Below, piece after piece: positions 3,625-36,082 of a stretch of 38,352 nucleotides of DNA. Source of the stretch: a virus. A program made the position numbers and the translations under genes. Under the pieces are notes generated by a model. That model was not told the DNA's origin, searched no databases, and worked only from the letters and a program-made list of their open reading frames with translations. Position 1 is the stretch's first letter. Each line of letters starts with the position of its first letter. The stretch lies in the IMG/VR virus record IMGVR_UViG_3300018079_000022, positions 1-38,352 of that record; one strand, 5' to 3'.

Positions 3625-4366
3625 TGGATTTTTCCTTTTTGGTAATTGTTACCTTGTCAAAGTTTTCATCATCTTGCAAGCCAAGTAAGACACGCAAGTT
3701 TTTTCTAATACCGAATGGGACGGGTGCGGCTATTTCTAAATCAACTAATCCAATCAAAGCGTCACCGACATTATGTCCAGACCAATCAAGTATTTTTTGT
3801 GAGTATTCAATCTCTATACCTTTGATGCCTGCTAAAAAATCACACTTGGGACCAAGCACTTTAGCGGGACGTGGTGCAAGTAATCCCTGCTCAGGAATTC
3901 GCTCACGTTTTCCAAGTCGTATAATGCACTTTTCAAAATCTAAATCACCATTGGCAAATACTACGAACACACCCATTTCTTGAATGCTTAGTAGCGTTCC
4001 CATGACCGAGGCGAAACTCCAACCCGTCACGCCTCGGTTTGTTATGATCTTGCCATCATGGTTGGAAGAAAACAGATCGGTAATAATCAAGTACGGCCAA
4101 TTGGTCATTGGTTGCCCGTTGTTGTTTTGTGCATTGCGGATTTCTGCCATGCGTGCGAGTTGAGGAAAGAGACGATCATCTTTCAAGCTGTTGAGAAAAT
4201 CATCATTCGTCTTTCGCTCAATCACGAGTGTATGATTGTCACTGGTTACAGCAAGAATATCTCCTGTCTCAAGCATTGACACAGTAGTTGGCACTCCACC
4301 AAATTTCAAGTTCTGAATCCATGCTGGTTCTCTTGAGTCGATAATGATTGCAGTTATTTCAGGCAT
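3608..4366 (-). CDS. ERCC4 (XPF/Mus81-type) nuclease
   Basis: The N-terminal domain of this 252-residue protein has the complete ERCC4 nuclease signature. It has IIIDSRE at 8-13, GD at 35-36, ERKTNDDF at 50-57 (the GDxnERKxxxD active site) and a following LKDDRLFPQLARM helix. The C-terminal third could hold a helix-hairpin-helix-like part (DFLAGIKGIEIEYSQKILD), but this is uncertain. Family members cut branched or flap DNA. Next to RecT it probably supplies resection or structure cleavage in a phage recombination pair, where Exo or RecE would be more usual. Its start overlaps the stop of the HNH gene. Confidence 0.8.
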   Translation of the reverse strand: MPEITAIIIDSREPAWIQNLKFGGVPTTVSMLETGDILAVTSDNHTLVIERKTNDDFLNSLKDDRLFPQLARMAEIRNAQNNNGQPMTNWPYLIITDLFSSNHDGKIITNRGVTGWSFASVMGTLLSIQEMGVFVVFANGDLDFEKCIIRLGKRERIPEQGLLAPRPAKVLGPKCDFLAGIKGIEIEYSQKILDWSGHNVGDALIGLVDLEIAAPVPFGIRKNLRVLLGLQDDENFDKVTITKKEKSNGNQK

Positions 4367-4833
4367 TAGAAGTTTGTCCTTGCGTACTCACCATATAAAT
4401 TCTTTGCTGCGCTATCGTAGGCACGAGCAGCATCTTCAACATTGGAAAAATGGCCTAAGTGAATTTTCTTGCCTTCAACACATATTCGTGCTTGCCACTT
4501 TTCATTATTCCAGAACACACCTTTATAACCACTGGTATTATTTGTCTGCTTACTTTTGTTAGCTTGGTTTTGTGTGTTGGTGCAAACGCGTAAGTTACGC
4601 CGTTGATTATTCAATCCATTGCCATCACGGTGATCTGTATCCATTTCAACAGGTGTATTCATAATTTCTCGGTGCATCCAAACACGTTTTTGAAATGGTG
4701 ATCTACCTACATTACGAACGGCATAAAATGTAGCTCTGGCTTTGATTGCGTACCACTTCCACTGATTTAGATATTCAAAATCAGCAGTATCAACAATGGC
4801 GTACTTGCCTTGCGTAAGCTCAATTTGTGGCAT
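4366..4833 (-). CDS. HNH homing endonuclease with AP2 DNA-binding domain
   Basis: The 155-residue protein pairs an HNH nuclease region (about 53-95, with MHREIM, DTDHRDGNGLNN and NLRVCTNTQNQ) with an AP2/ERF-type DNA-binding domain at 101-152 (SGYKGVFW, EKWQARI, LGHFSNVEDAARAYD, AAKNLYGEYA). This is the standard layout of free-standing HNH-AP2 homing endonucleases that invade phage genomes. It sits between the nuclease gene and the 5132 gene and could be a later insertion. The ORF appears intact. Confidence 0.88.
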   Translation of the reverse strand: MPQIELTQGKYAIVDTADFEYLNQWKWYAIKARATFYAVRNVGRSPFQKRVWMHREIMNTPVEMDTDHRDGNGLNNQRRNLRVCTNTQNQANKSKQTNNTSGYKGVFWNNEKWQARICVEGKKIHLGHFSNVEDAARAYDSAAKNLYGEYARTNF

Positions 4834-8544: not shown

Positions 8545-8697
8545 TGATCGTTATCCTATATCAATATAGGTAGGATTACAACCAGGCTTACCCGTTCGTC
8601 GCTCCCGCGCCCTCCGGAGCCGAAGAGCGCAGTTCGAGTCTGCGCGGGGGTACACTGTGTTCGTAAGCCTACCTGAAAAAGCATAGGATAGCGATCA
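8545..8697 (+). other. attP: attP site containing tRNA(Arg)-like 3' half
   Basis: Bases 8612-8654 read as the 3' half of a tRNA. They give an anticodon loop CTCCGGA (anticodon CCG, an arginine codon reader), a T-arm CGCAG-TTCGAGT-CTGCG (8628-8644), an acceptor strand CGGGGGT, and a discriminator A followed by CA. The 5' half is absent, so it is not a functional tRNA but the core that restores a host tRNA after integration. Flanking arms include AGGCTTAC (8584-8591) versus GTAAGCCT (8663-8670). An outer pair, 8545-8559 and 8683-8697, matches at 14 of 15 positions in inverted orientation. A further TTATCCTAT copy lies at 8730-8738. These are probable integrase core and arm sites. Confidence 0.82.
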
Positions 8698-8736
8698 CAG
8701 TTGCAAAGTTTCAGAAATGCGGAGGCTCGTTATCCT

Positions 8737-9681
8737 ATGTTACTTTCAAAAGCCATCGAAGGATTTATACTATTCGCAAAGGGCGGTAAATACTCACCTG
8801 CATATATTCCCACAATGCACGGGTATCTAAAATACATCTGTAAATATTTCGGTGATCCTGAAATAGAATCGTTGTCGCCTGAACACTGGCAGAGGTACAT
8901 AACACATCTTTATACTGACTACAAGCCTACCCGATTCAATGGAGATACGTCTCCACTTGCACCCGCGTCCATTGATAATCATTGGAAAGCAATCAAGGGA
9001 TTTTATAATTGGGCCAGCGATATACTGAGTATCATTCGACCAGACCTGAAATTACAACGCCCTAAATATGAGTCACCGCAAATTGTGCCATTTACGCAAG
9101 ATGAAGTAAAACGAATGTTGAACGCGTGCCAATTTACGCAAGTTGTAAAGCAATCGGGGAGAAGCTATAAAATCAAACGACCCAACGCGGACCGCGATAG
9201 ATCAATCATTTTGATTTTATTGGATACAGGAATAAGACTTGGTGAGTTGACTCGTCTTAAACTTGGTGACATCAATTTAGAAAACGGTGAGATATATATT
9301 CGACCCTATCACGATGGAAGAAAGTCAAAACCTCGTGTTGTGTTTTTGGGTATTCGCACTCGTCAAACCGTTTGGAAATATATCGCCAAACAGCAGGCGG
9401 GAAATGACCCAGGCGAACCACTTATAGTTTTACAAGGTGCATCCATTAGGATATTGATTAATCGTATCGGGGATAATGCTAAAGTTCCTAACGCACATCC
9501 TCATAGATTTCGTCACACAATGGCAATTACATACCTCCGTAACCATGGGGATATGTTTACACTGCAAAGATTGCTCGGACATTCCACGCTGGATATGACT
9601 TTGAGATATTTGGACATTGCAAAATCAGACGTAGCCGAGGCGCATCGGTACGCAAGTCCTGTGGATAATTGGAAGTTATAA
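8737..9681 (+). CDS. int: Tyrosine recombinase (phage integrase)
   Basis: The ATG at 8737 is preferred, with GGAGG upstream; the frame also allows TTG at 8701. From this start (314 aa) the protein has an N-terminal SAM-like core-binding domain and a C-terminal catalytic domain. It has R167 (GIRLGEL), the HxxR pair H256 and R259 (PHRFRH), H282 (LLGHS) and the nucleophile Y291 (MTLRYLD). It would recombine attP with the host tRNA gene. An arm-type site overlaps the start region, so integrase may be autoregulated. The gene contains an ATACTGAGTAT copy at 9022. Confidence 0.93.
   Translation: MLLSKAIEGFILFAKGGKYSPAYIPTMHGYLKYICKYFGDPEIESLSPEHWQRYITHLYTDYKPTRFNGDTSPLAPASIDNHWKAIKGFYNWASDILSIIRPDLKLQRPKYESPQIVPFTQDEVKRMLNACQFTQVVKQSGRSYKIKRPNADRDRSIILILLDTGIRLGELTRLKLGDINLENGEIYIRPYHDGRKSKPRVVFLGIRTRQTVWKYIAKQQAGNDPGEPLIVLQGASIRILINRIGDNAKVPNAHPHRFRHTMAITYLRNHGDMFTLQRLLGHSTLDMTLRYLDIAKSDVAEAHRYASPVDNWKL
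9022..9032. repeat. Dispersed palindrome ATACTGAGTAT, copy 6
   Basis: Exact copy inside the integrase gene (plus strand), read in the ILSI codon frame. Confidence 0.9.
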
Positions 9682-19686: not shown

Positions 19687-20277
19687 TTATTTTTTTGCTT
19701 CTGGTATTCGCGCTCCCCTCATCAGCGCGGCTTCAAAAGCATCAGTGATTACAGGTTGATTATTGCCTCCCGCTACGATCTTAGGAGGTTCTTTGGTATC
19801 TAAAAACAGGTAATCATTATCTTTCTTGATTGTTTCGAGTTGCTCATTTAGACCAACAATAGAACCATCAGCATCATTGAGCTTAAGTAAATCTTTACTC
19901 AGCAGGGCTTGCACGGCTTTCGGGTTCTTTGCCTTTGCGCCTGCCAGAGCCGATTCCAACGCATGGTCAAACTTTAGCGCGTTGAGTTGTGCAGCGGTAT
20001 CGGCTTGCGCCTGCTCGAATTTAGTTTTGTAGTCATTAGCGGTCTTTTGAATTTCATCAACATTCAATTTCTTGAAGCCTTCGATTGTGGTATTAGCTTC
20101 AGTGAGTTGACTCTTCAACGTTTTTGTTTCCGCGTCCGCCGTGGATAGTTTCGTCTTATGGGATTCAATATCTTTCCCATGTGCGACGATGACCTTATCC
20201 AGCACATCAGCATTCAAGCCGGCTTTTTCAAGTGCTTCGGTTGTCAGTCCTAACTTTTCTAAATCAGCTTTGTTCAT
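19687..20277 (-). CDS. Scaffold protein (GP20-like)
   Basis: A 196-residue, mainly coiled-coil, Lys/Glu/Ala-rich protein (KADLEKLGLTTEALEKAG, then SHKTKLSTADAETKTLKSQL) matching the phage minor structural GP20/scaffold family. It is placed immediately before the capsid gene in transcription. The ATG overlaps the stop of a five-codon reading frame in the leader (TAATG), so translation may be coupled to it. Confidence 0.8.
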   Translation of the reverse strand: MNKADLEKLGLTTEALEKAGLNADVLDKVIVAHGKDIESHKTKLSTADAETKTLKSQLTEANTTIEGFKKLNVDEIQKTANDYKTKFEQAQADTAAQLNALKFDHALESALAGAKAKNPKAVQALLSKDLLKLNDADGSIVGLNEQLETIKKDNDYLFLDTKEPPKIVAGGNNQPVITDAFEAALMRGARIPEAKK

Positions 20278-20370
20278 TACCTGTTACCTTTCATCATGGC
20301 TAGGCTTTTATAAGTGGTTGCCTATCACTTACCGCCCGCACCTTTTACGAATTGCGGATTTCGAGTTAAC

Positions 20371-33595: not shown

Positions 33596-34282
33596 TCATC
33601 TCAGCACCGCCATAAGCTGATTGCCTACCCATTCTGTATATACGGGCGGGACAGCTTGGGTAAGCTCGCGCCGATTCATCCAGTCGATACCCATTGCGCT
33701 CTTCGCCATTTCAAAATTGCCGATGTGACCGGCAACTGTAATAAATGTGCCGTTTTTATATTTGTCTCGATTGACGCCTCTAACACTATTGCGGGAATAA
33801 CCATGATGATTGCAGGTCATTGGCGACATATGGATTGAAGGCTTACAAACAAAAAGCCTGTGCCTGAAAACTCGAAGTCCAAACATCGTTCCGCAAAGCA
33901 TCAAGTAATTTTTCATAGGTGCTCCGGGCACATTCTCTACAACGTAAGGTTTACCCACTCGATCAAGCACGTCTATTGTTGGTTGCAACAAGTCAGGATG
34001 TTTCTCTCTTGCGCCGCTCCAAGGTGTAATTCTCGAATATGCCTGACACGGCGGGCTTGCATGGAAAAAGTCAAAGTCATCAATGCCATACCATCGCCCA
34101 TCACTCGCTAAAAACTTTTCTCCGTTCATCATTCGTGTGAGTACATCAATCGCATCGCCCAAAATAAACGGGAATGGATATCGCGGCTGGGGACGGTTAT
34201 CCACACCAACCATTTCAAAGCCTGCGCGGTGATAACCCATTGAGCATCCACCGCCACCGCAATATAAATCAAACCCTCTCAT
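33596..34282 (-). CDS. Cytosine-C5 DNA methyltransferase
   Basis: A 228-residue protein with motif I FDLYCGGGGCSMGYHRAGF (SAM binding), motif IV ASPPCQAYSR with the catalytic Cys79, motif VI VENVPGAP (116-118 ENV) and motif VIII RHRLF (140-144). It methylates cytosine in a target not deducible here. No restriction partner is seen, so it is an orphan that may protect phage DNA against restriction. Confidence 0.9.
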   Translation of the reverse strand: MRGFDLYCGGGGCSMGYHRAGFEMVGVDNRPQPRYPFPFILGDAIDVLTRMMNGEKFLASDGRWYGIDDFDFFHASPPCQAYSRITPWSGAREKHPDLLQPTIDVLDRVGKPYVVENVPGAPMKNYLMLCGTMFGLRVFRHRLFVCKPSIHMSPMTCNHHGYSRNSVRGVNRDKYKNGTFITVAGHIGNFEMAKSAMGIDWMNRRELTQAVPPVYTEWVGNQLMAVLR

Positions 34283-34836
34283 CTCAGTGTCTCACCTTGC
34301 GCGACCAACTGCACCACCCGCCAATCTGAAACCACGAACGGACTGTTGACGCGTGCATCCTTGCGAGCAAATACCTTTGCTGTCTCAAAGCGTGACCGGA
34401 CTTCGACGTATTTGTCGCGGCCTCCAAAATGTTCCTTCCATCTGTCCTCACGCAAATCCACTTTCTTCTCGCCTTCTTCGAGCATTCGCATCGCCAGCAA
34501 TGTCTTTGCAAACTGGATATCCTTGCGTACTGTGACCTGATGCAGAGTTTGCGTGTACTGATGTAGCTCTCCCATGTTCGGAATACTGCGGGATAACTCC
34601 GTTGGCTTTGGCGTGATGATCTGCGGCGTATCTGTGTCGGTCATGTACGCCTGATACATCAGGCCAGCAATAATCATGCCAACGTAAACAATCACCGCGA
34701 AGAACTGGAAAATTAGAAACAAAGTATCCACATCCCAGGTGCGAAGGTTGCGTTGTTTGTAATATTCAAGGATACGAAATCCAGTAAGAGTTAGCGCCAG
34801 TGGAAAAGACTGGTGCCACCATTTGAAAATATACAT
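34279..34836 (-). CDS. Membrane-anchored protein, 185 aa
   Basis: The ATG at 34836 is preferred, with GGAGG at 8-base spacing; a longer frame to 35055 overlaps the neighbour. The first 60 residues carry a hydrophobic segment (LFLIFQFFAVIVYVGMIIAG), then a soluble, helical and charged part (MRMLEEGEKKVDLREDRWKE). It might place a phage complex at the membrane. Function unknown. Confidence 0.6.
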   Translation of the reverse strand: MYIFKWWHQSFPLALTLTGFRILEYYKQRNLRTWDVDTLFLIFQFFAVIVYVGMIIAGLMYQAYMTDTDTPQIITPKPTELSRSIPNMGELHQYTQTLHQVTVRKDIQFAKTLLAMRMLEEGEKKVDLREDRWKEHFGGRDKYVEVRSRFETAKVFARKDARVNSPFVVSDWRVVQLVAQGETLR

Positions 34837-34840
34837 GGCG

Positions 34841-35071
34841 CTATCCTCCACTCCAAAACTCACCCGCCAATCTATTCTGCTCCGCGTTCTCCCAATCCGC
34901 CAATACCACCGCCCGCGCTTCTTCGGCTGTGAGTTCATCCATCTGTTCGCGGATGTCGTAATCATCATAGTCTTTATTGAGCCGTCGCAACACATACGCA
35001 ATGGCAAACCATAGCCAATTGAAAGTGAAGCGGGGAATATAGACATTAGGGACATTGATAGATACTTTCAT
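34841..35071 (-). CDS. Small protein downstream of CRISPR-like repeat, 76 aa
   Basis: MKVSINVPNVYIPRFTFNWL, followed by an aromatic segment (WFAIAYVLRRLN) and an acidic helix (DYDIREQMDELTAEEARAVV). Its ATG starts three bases after the CRISPR repeat, and no ordinary ribosome site is visible. It is not recognised as any known anti-CRISPR. Its leader makes it a gene of interest. Confidence 0.6.
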   Translation of the reverse strand: MKVSINVPNVYIPRFTFNWLWFAIAYVLRRLNKDYDDYDIREQMDELTAEEARAVVLADWENAEQNRLAGEFWSGG

Positions 35072-35074
35072 AGC

Positions 35075-35107
35075 GTTTCAATCCACGCTCCCTATGAAGA
35101 GAGCGAC
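35075..35107 (-). CRISPR. Solitary type I-C CRISPR repeat
   Basis: The 33-base minus-strand sequence begins GTCGCTC, folds as CGCTCTCT-TCAT-AGGGAGCG (one U-G wobble), and ends GTGGATTGAAAC, the 3' end of type I-C repeats. No second repeat occurs within spacer distance and no cas genes are in the window. A small hairpin (AGCAC/GTGCT, 35112-35128) stands just before it. It lies in the 108-base gap between primase and the 35071 gene. By analogy it may be an RNA-based anti-CRISPR (solitary repeat unit). Confidence 0.8.
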
Positions 35108-35179
35108 TACAAGCACAGGCCTCGTGCTATTTCTTTGCGAGAGTTGCAGGTAGCGGGATCTCATTATGTTTTACCTGTA

Positions 35180-36082
35180 TCAGCCCCAAATCCCAATTTC
35201 ATTTGCTAATGCCGTTACAGCAGCACTATCATTAAGGTTGTGCATACGAGCATATAAGTTGATTACATCAAGGGGTTTGAAATTACAAACATTACAACCA
35301 TATAATTGCCTTCTTGTATCTATCCATGCCGAGGGATTATTGTCATCATGGAATAAACATTTCGTAACAAGCCATCGGCTATCGGCTGAAGTGCGGCGAA
35401 CGTTAGCAAAGAAATTTTCTATCCTCGTAGCGCGCTTTACCTTAGTAATTAGATCCTCGCTATTGTCAAACATAGCCGCTTGATATGGATCGTAACTATA
35501 CTCAGTATTGGTATGTGTGATCTGGGTCGGCTCCATTGCGCCGACTGCAACATCACGTGTCACACGAGGAAACAAATCAAGCGGTAGGATTGATTCGATA
35601 TCATCCACTACTGGAAATATCATCTCACCCACAGCTTGATACTGAGTATTATTCGGATGCACACACCCAGGACCCACAACAAATTTACGTTGTGCCTGCA
35701 CATCAATGCCGCGGCGCTTGTCATTGCACGCCGGCACCGAAGTCATAACGTATACGTGCATGCCTCGTGATGTGCGCACCTTGAAAGCCGTATCACACAC
35801 ATACTCAGTATCGTTACTCTCACTCCACAATTTCCAGATATCGAAAAACTCCATAGAGTCAAAATCAATTACAACTAAATTCCGCCATCCACACACAACA
35901 CCATAGTTCAACCACCCACTACCTAGCCAATTAACCAATTCATACTCAGTATTGACCTGTGTAAAATATTGCGACCATGTTCCACCAGTCAAACTATCCT
36001 CAGGTAGCTTGCTACGATGACCCAACGGGATCAAAGAAATTCCCATTTTTAAGAATTCGAGTGCGTGCTGTAGTTTTGTCAT
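35180..36082 (-). CDS. Prim-Pol type primase with C-terminal CHC2-like zinc motif
   Basis: A 300-residue protein with an archaeo-eukaryotic primase (bifunctional primase-polymerase) domain: IDFDSM (D73, D75), the SRGMHVYV region (R106, H109) and VVGPGCVHPNN. After about 230 residues a zinc finger has CxxH (C242, H245) and CxxC (C263, C266), followed by FKPLDVINLYARM, like CHC2 primase zinc domains. It would make primers at the phage origin with the SF3 helicase. Four ATACTGAGTAT copies lie in this gene. Confidence 0.85.
   Translation of the reverse strand: MTKLQHALEFLKMGISLIPLGHRSKLPEDSLTGGTWSQYFTQVNTEYELVNWLGSGWLNYGVVCGWRNLVVIDFDSMEFFDIWKLWSESNDTEYVCDTAFKVRTSRGMHVYVMTSVPACNDKRRGIDVQAQRKFVVGPGCVHPNNTQYQAVGEMIFPVVDDIESILPLDLFPRVTRDVAVGAMEPTQITHTNTEYSYDPYQAAMFDNSEDLITKVKRATRIENFFANVRRTSADSRWLVTKCLFHDDNNPSAWIDTRRQLYGCNVCNFKPLDVINLYARMHNLNDSAAVTALANEIGIWG
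35498..35508. repeat. Dispersed palindrome ATACTCAGTAT, copy 18
   Basis: Exact copy in the primase gene, read as NTEYS. Confidence 0.9.
35639..35649. repeat. Dispersed palindrome ATACTGAGTAT, copy 19
   Basis: Exact copy in the primase gene, read as NTQYQ, 141 bases from copy 18. Confidence 0.9.
35801..35811. repeat. Dispersed palindrome ATACTCAGTAT, copy 20
   Basis: Exact copy in the primase gene, read as DTEYV, 162 bases from copy 19. Confidence 0.9.
35942..35952. repeat. Dispersed palindrome ATACTCAGTAT, copy 21
   Basis: Exact copy in the primase gene, read as NTEYE, 141 bases from copy 20. Confidence 0.9.

Follow-up and report, generated by a model that had tools for sequence, protein, structure and literature searches.

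What does a single CRISPR repeat do in a phage in which no cas genes are recognized? The question is raised by the IMG/VR virus record IMGVR_UViG_3300018079_000022, which was analysed over its full length of 38,352 nt (referred to as the window). An initial annotation of this DNA had pointed to a solitary type I-C repeat at positions 35075–35107 and had proposed it as a candidate RNA-based anti-CRISPR, with a degraded mini-array as the alternative. We examined sequence and fold of the repeat, its genomic neighbourhood, its counterparts in bacterial genomes and related phages, and the arrangement of comparable repeats in other viruses.

Sequence and fold of the repeat

The repeat, GTCGCTCTCTTCATAGGGAGCGTGGATTGAAAC, is the minus-strand reading of positions 35075–35107 (33 nt) and occurs once in the 38,352 bases of the record. 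It is divided into 22 nt ending in a stem and an 11-nt UGGAUUGAAAC tail, which is the layout of type I-C repeats. In type I-C systems, cleavage by Cas5d produces a 5′ handle of 11 nt, and one Cas5d remains bound to the hairpin (PMC5965380). By analogy, the stem-loop CGCUCUCU-UCAU-AGGGAGCG (35086–35105, minus strand) is the expected binding site of Cas5d.

Minus-strand RNA of the repeat is predicted to fold into this stem of 8 bp with its 4-nt UCAU loop at −12.0 kcal/mol (z −3.2), a value beaten by only one of 200 shuffled sequences. The plus strand takes up a different fold (−8.1 kcal/mol). Folding both strands confirmed the earlier statement that the single wobble of the stem, U-G, pairs only in minus-strand RNA; on the other strand it becomes an A-C mismatch. 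With flanking sequence included, the hairpin predominated at most of the context lengths tested. Competing structures appeared in some of them, with the pair probability of the hairpin going down to 0.05–0.25, which counts against a function as RNA.

All 33 positions of the repeat are still I-C-like. A covariance model of nine other type I-C repeats (eight from viral contigs and one from Selenomonas), in which the window repeat was left out and the alignment (A2) was restricted to repeats of 33 nt, gave the site 42.8 bits (E = 1e-10 in the window). Under the same model, the next-best site of the window reached 12.3 bits and the best one in 0.96 Mb of related viral DNA no more than 16.4 bits. 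Together with the fold and with 30 of 33 identities to bacterial repeats (see below), this bears out the description of an intact I-C repeat with stem, loop and 3′ end. Rfam returned a match to CRISPR-DR9 only (23.2 bits), which lies below the cut-off of 45, and an assignment to an Rfam family was dropped.

Could the resemblance to a CRISPR repeat be fortuitous? Chance matches of 12 nt such as GTGGATTGAAAC do occur, one of them inside the terminase gene of a related phage (L020). However, over the full length the E-value is 1e-10, and only about 3e-6 33-mers within three mismatches of any of the approximately 17,800 known repeats are expected in a record of this size. A chance match, to which we assign next to no probability, was ruled out on these two grounds.

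A solitary repeat outside coding sequence

Solitary repeat units (SRUs) were surveyed with SRUFinder, which revealed 2,103 candidates in viral sequences (PMC10651486). It requires an identity of 90% or more that covers 90% or more of a known repeat, a bit score of at least 41.1, an intergenic location in a mobile element without cas genes, and the absence of any further copy, complete or partial, within 100 bp. The window repeat shows 90.9% identity over 33 nt (42.1 bits) to a repeat from Selenomonas and 93.8% over 32 nt (48.1 bits) to one from genome G338. Within 100 bp of it there is no further copy, either complete or partial. The location is intergenic in a mobile element, and no Cas protein was found among 20 window proteins compared with PADLOC-DB, nor among those scanned against Pfam and NCBIfam. 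By the published sequence criteria, the repeat is an SRU; in identity, coverage, bit score and position, nothing different in kind separates it from the SRUFinder candidates. It also has the repeat-like sequence and the I-C hairpin expected of a Racr (RNA anti-CRISPR) of subtype I-C. The repeat is non-coding, because a TGA inside GGATTGAAAC closes the upstream frame of the open reading frame (ORF) that follows.

The earlier claim of a solitary repeat in a phage without cas genes thus stands. Its alternative of a degraded mini-array finds no support in the flanks: their similarity to the repeat does not exceed that of shuffled flanks, no direct repeat was found nearby, and no second or partial repeat is present within 150 nt. 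An array or mini-array, the latter being at least two repeats around at least one spacer, was ruled out at this place for want of a second copy. Virus-borne mini-CRISPR arrays share with the window the presence of repeats in viruses without cas genes but have one or two spacers between their repeats, whereas the window has a single repeat and no spacer. A related idea is that the locus borrows Cas proteins of the host against competing phages, with flanking sequence serving as spacer. Such arrays do exist in archaeal viruses (PMC6858448, cited in PMC11656645), but there is only a single repeat here, the 3′ flank is coding sequence of the following ORF, and the 34 nt on each side matched nothing, with up to seven mismatches allowed, in about 1 Mb of related viral DNA. 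We consider this use of the repeat highly improbable.

Gene neighbourhood

The repeat is located in a 108-nt non-coding gap and is co-oriented with both neighbouring genes, all on the minus strand. The upstream gene (35180–36082) encodes a protein of 300 aa with Prim-Pol and CHC2 zinc-finger domains (Pfam PF09250, PF01807). Between its stop codon and the repeat lie 72 nt of non-coding sequence (35108–35179), the candidate RNA for Cas7 assembly in the model described below. An ORF of 76 aa (34841–35071) starts 3 nt after the repeat. For this ORF no homologue and no family match were found, a peptide-pattern search of viral contigs was likewise negative, and the fold model is of low confidence (pLDDT 58), so that we make no claim for it as a possible anti-CRISPR protein (Acr). 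The next gene of the operon (34279–34836, minus strand) is predicted to encode 185 aa with a probable membrane segment. It is followed by an orphan C5-cytosine DNA methyltransferase (33596–34282, minus strand) in the same accessory segment as the repeat. The methyltransferase is probably an anti-restriction enzyme, and this may give the neighbourhood an anti-defence flavour. No Acr homologue was recognized beside the repeat.

The orientation of the repeat agrees with the minus-strand operon. That minus is the strand of local transcription, as had been stated before, is supported by plausible genes on this strand over more than 25 kb around the repeat. No good minus-strand promoter was found directly upstream, and neither a promoter nor a terminator of the repeat's own was convincing; the repeat would therefore depend on transcription of the operon.

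Several other elements were seen elsewhere in the window. Immediately upstream of the gene for the tyrosine integrase (8701–9681), positions 8600–8665 resemble the 3′ end of a tRNA (CGCAGTTCGAGTCTGCG followed by CGGGGGTA) and are a candidate attP. ARAGORN detected no tRNA in the window. The cis-regulatory RNA GP20-b of Rfam (41.2 bits) is found at 20301–20363 on the minus strand, upstream of an ORF at 19687–20277, and is also present in the relatives L012, L017 and L020. A DnaJ-domain protein of the phage is encoded at 980–1807, and a gene resembling AP2/HNH homing endonucleases (4366–4833) adjoins recombination genes, both on the minus strand.

Related repeats in bacterial genomes

The initial annotation had suggested a comparison with CRISPR arrays of candidate hosts. 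In a scan of approximately 85,000 genomes, one per species, a Selenomonas metagenome-assembled genome (L002) has a repeat identical to the window repeat at 30 of 33 positions, the only match in this set to a slightly degenerate repeat pattern. It forms an array of 32 copies adjoining genes for Cas8c/Csd1 (csd1), Cas7/Csd2 (csd2), Cas4 (cas4) and Cas5d (cas5d), and this I-C locus is intact. Among 398 genomes from the phylum of the Selenomonas genome, G338 carries an array of 78 copies, also with 30 of 33 identities. The comparison thus revealed a related I-C repeat but no exact one: the window repeat itself is absent from the approximately 85,000 genomes, where near variants were seen in Selenomonas only, at three differences, and it was not found in viral contigs either. 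When spacers of the two arrays were compared with the window, none matched convincingly. Among prophage SRUs from hosts with at least one cas operon, the published survey found that 83% agree with a subtype of the host (PMC10651486), which gives a fair prior for a host with a type I-C system.

Another feature of the phage might also help to identify the host. The 11-bp near-palindrome ATACTSAGTAT is highly iterated, with 18 occurrences in the window versus 0.03 expected, in coding as well as non-coding DNA (among them positions 1393, 2826, 5202, 8492, 9022, 9687, 35498, 35639, 35801, 35942 and 38137). There are 12 occurrences in 21 kb of the relatives L017 and L026 and eight in L012; in other relatives it is not frequent.

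Syntenic phages lack the repeat

Eighty relatives were collected through the terminase. By tblastn, Prim-Pol was found among these relatives at 33–56% identity to that of the window, and in several (L005, L012, L017, L020; 50–56%) the gene is found at the same place. A peptide-pattern search for Prim-Pol homologues in viral contigs found none. In those inspected in most detail, the gene after Prim-Pol begins at its stop codon or overlaps it, leaving neither gap nor repeat, and the repeat was not found in about 0.96 Mb from relatives with a homologous terminase. The orphan methyltransferase has no match in the syntenic relatives either. Since the next gene of the relatives abuts Prim-Pol, the segment comprising the repeat, the 76-aa ORF, the 185-aa membrane-type ORF and the methyltransferase is probably an accessory insertion. 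The repeat would then be an accessory acquisition that has been kept intact.

Within the group, this phage is the only one found with the repeat, and for this copy there is no conservation that would indicate selection. It could be an inert relic, either a captured fragment of a host array or the last remnant of a mini-array, and the three differences from the nearest known repeats fit this explanation as well. However, neither a partial second repeat nor a spacer-repeat spacing is left within 150 nt, none of the 33 positions has lost its I-C character, the wobble preserves the stem in RNA, and the orientation fits the bias of other viral I-C SRUs described in the next section. We regard a relic as unlikely, while giving it appreciable weight.

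Orientation of solitary I-C repeats in other viruses

Viral contigs were scanned with two patterns for the 3′ part of the I-C repeat, which yielded 36 stretches. Once arrays, duplicates and loci with another copy close by had been removed, 24 solitary repeats were left, 17 of which were located outside ORFs of at least 90 aa. As ORFs were defined by a simple length rule and part of the repeat was fixed exactly, this set should be read as a sample and not as a census. The upstream gene is co-directional with the repeat RNA in all 14 SRUs that have one (p = 6e-5). In a non-redundant intergenic set, which leaves out the redundancy of a homologous pair (L092/L106) and one contig bearing arrays elsewhere, the count is 12 of 12 (p = 2.4e-4). 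Other ORF cut-offs gave 7/7, 9/9, 10/11, 12/13 and 11/12. Downstream genes are co-directional in 9 of 17 cases (6/9 to 9/15 after filtering), which is near random. The window repeat obeys the same rule for its upstream gene.

Such a bias is expected if the repeat is transcribed together with the upstream gene. It favours a function as RNA and is hard to explain for a site acting at the DNA level, for instance an attachment or recombination site for CRISPR arrays that is used by an integrase or by Cas1-Cas2 of the host; a site of this kind should not follow the direction of the upstream gene. Integration of SRUs into arrays has been proposed (PMC10651486), and the phage encodes a tyrosine integrase. 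Yet the integrase gene is approximately 26 kb away, with the tRNA-like candidate att site beside it, and a DNA-level role appears very unlikely to us.

The downstream genes bear on another possibility, namely that the repeat is a cis-regulatory leader of the 76-aa ORF, in which binding or cutting by Cas5d would alter translation and let the phage sense a type I-C host. The end of the repeat is 3 nt from the ATG of this ORF, and the sole purine-rich candidates for a ribosome-binding site (GGGAG, GGA) are inside the repeat. Against this stand the lack of an orientation bias for downstream genes and the lack of a known function of the ORF. We know of no precedent for a CRISPR repeat as a Cas5d-responsive leader and consider this role improbable.

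Two observations from the survey concern other viruses. Contig IMGVR_UViG_3300032156_001598 (L088, L102) carries an identical solitary type I-C repeat twice, at positions apart from each other. In L085 (4800–4900), a short direct repeat (AGATTTGAATGGTGA) and a fuzzy second copy flank a type I-C-like repeat; this is possibly a true degraded mini-array.

A candidate RNA anti-CRISPR

That solitary repeats of phages can act as RNA anti-CRISPRs, as stated in the initial annotation, is documented. RacrIC1 from a Bifidobacterium pseudocatenulatum prophage, located 11 nt downstream of acrIC5 and co-transcribed with it, blocks type I-C immunity, as proven by plaque assay and 5′ RACE (PMC10651486). Like RacrIC1, the window repeat is a solitary, non-coding type I-C repeat of a phage without cas genes just downstream of a co-directional phage gene. 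The two differ in the upstream gene, which is Prim-Pol at 72 nt in the window and acrIC5 at 11 nt for RacrIC1, and in status, the window element being a candidate. A mechanism has been described for RacrIF1 from a Thiocystis prophage: Cas6f binds and cuts the hairpin, and the RNA upstream of the cut, which is the inhibitory part, gathers Cas7 into an aberrant complex (PMC10651486). The mechanism proposed here by analogy is the same, with a crRNA-processing nuclease on the hairpin and Cas7 on the upstream RNA. Whereas RacrIF1 is recognized by Cas6f and has its own promoter, the window repeat is of the Cas5d subtype and has no evident promoter.

According to this model, the repeat would be transcribed by read-through within the mRNA of the Prim-Pol operon. 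The hairpin would be recognized by Cas5d (Cas5c) of the host and cleaved at its 3′ base, between GCG and UGGAUUGAAAC. The fragment upstream of the cut would retain Cas5d, and its phage RNA next to the hairpin, 72 nt or more, could then be occupied by Cas7. The complexes formed in this way would be aberrant and lack a useful guide, and they would divert Cas5d and Cas7 from functional Cascade.

We consider it probable, with moderate confidence, that the window repeat is a candidate RNA anti-CRISPR against a type I-C system of the host. The earlier proposal is upheld in so far as the repeat is intact and solitary, is oriented such that it can act as RNA, conforms to the SRU definition and has a precedent in RacrIC1; it is weakened by the absence of an exact repeat in approximately 85,000 genomes. 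There is a slim chance of a dual element, in which the cut by Cas5d near the start of the 76-aa ORF would, besides diverting Cas5d and Cas7, switch the expression of this ORF. If so, the early operon of the phage would respond to the presence of a type I-C system in the host.

Class and mechanism of such elements are already known, with RacrIC1 as a tested I-C precedent, and the window repeat adds one member. If functional, it adds a type I-C Racr from a metagenomic phage group, with no Acr gene recognized beside this repeat. That solitary I-C repeats of viruses follow a co-directional gene points to a possible general design, in which the repeat is tagged onto a transcript whose 3′ end becomes the decoy.
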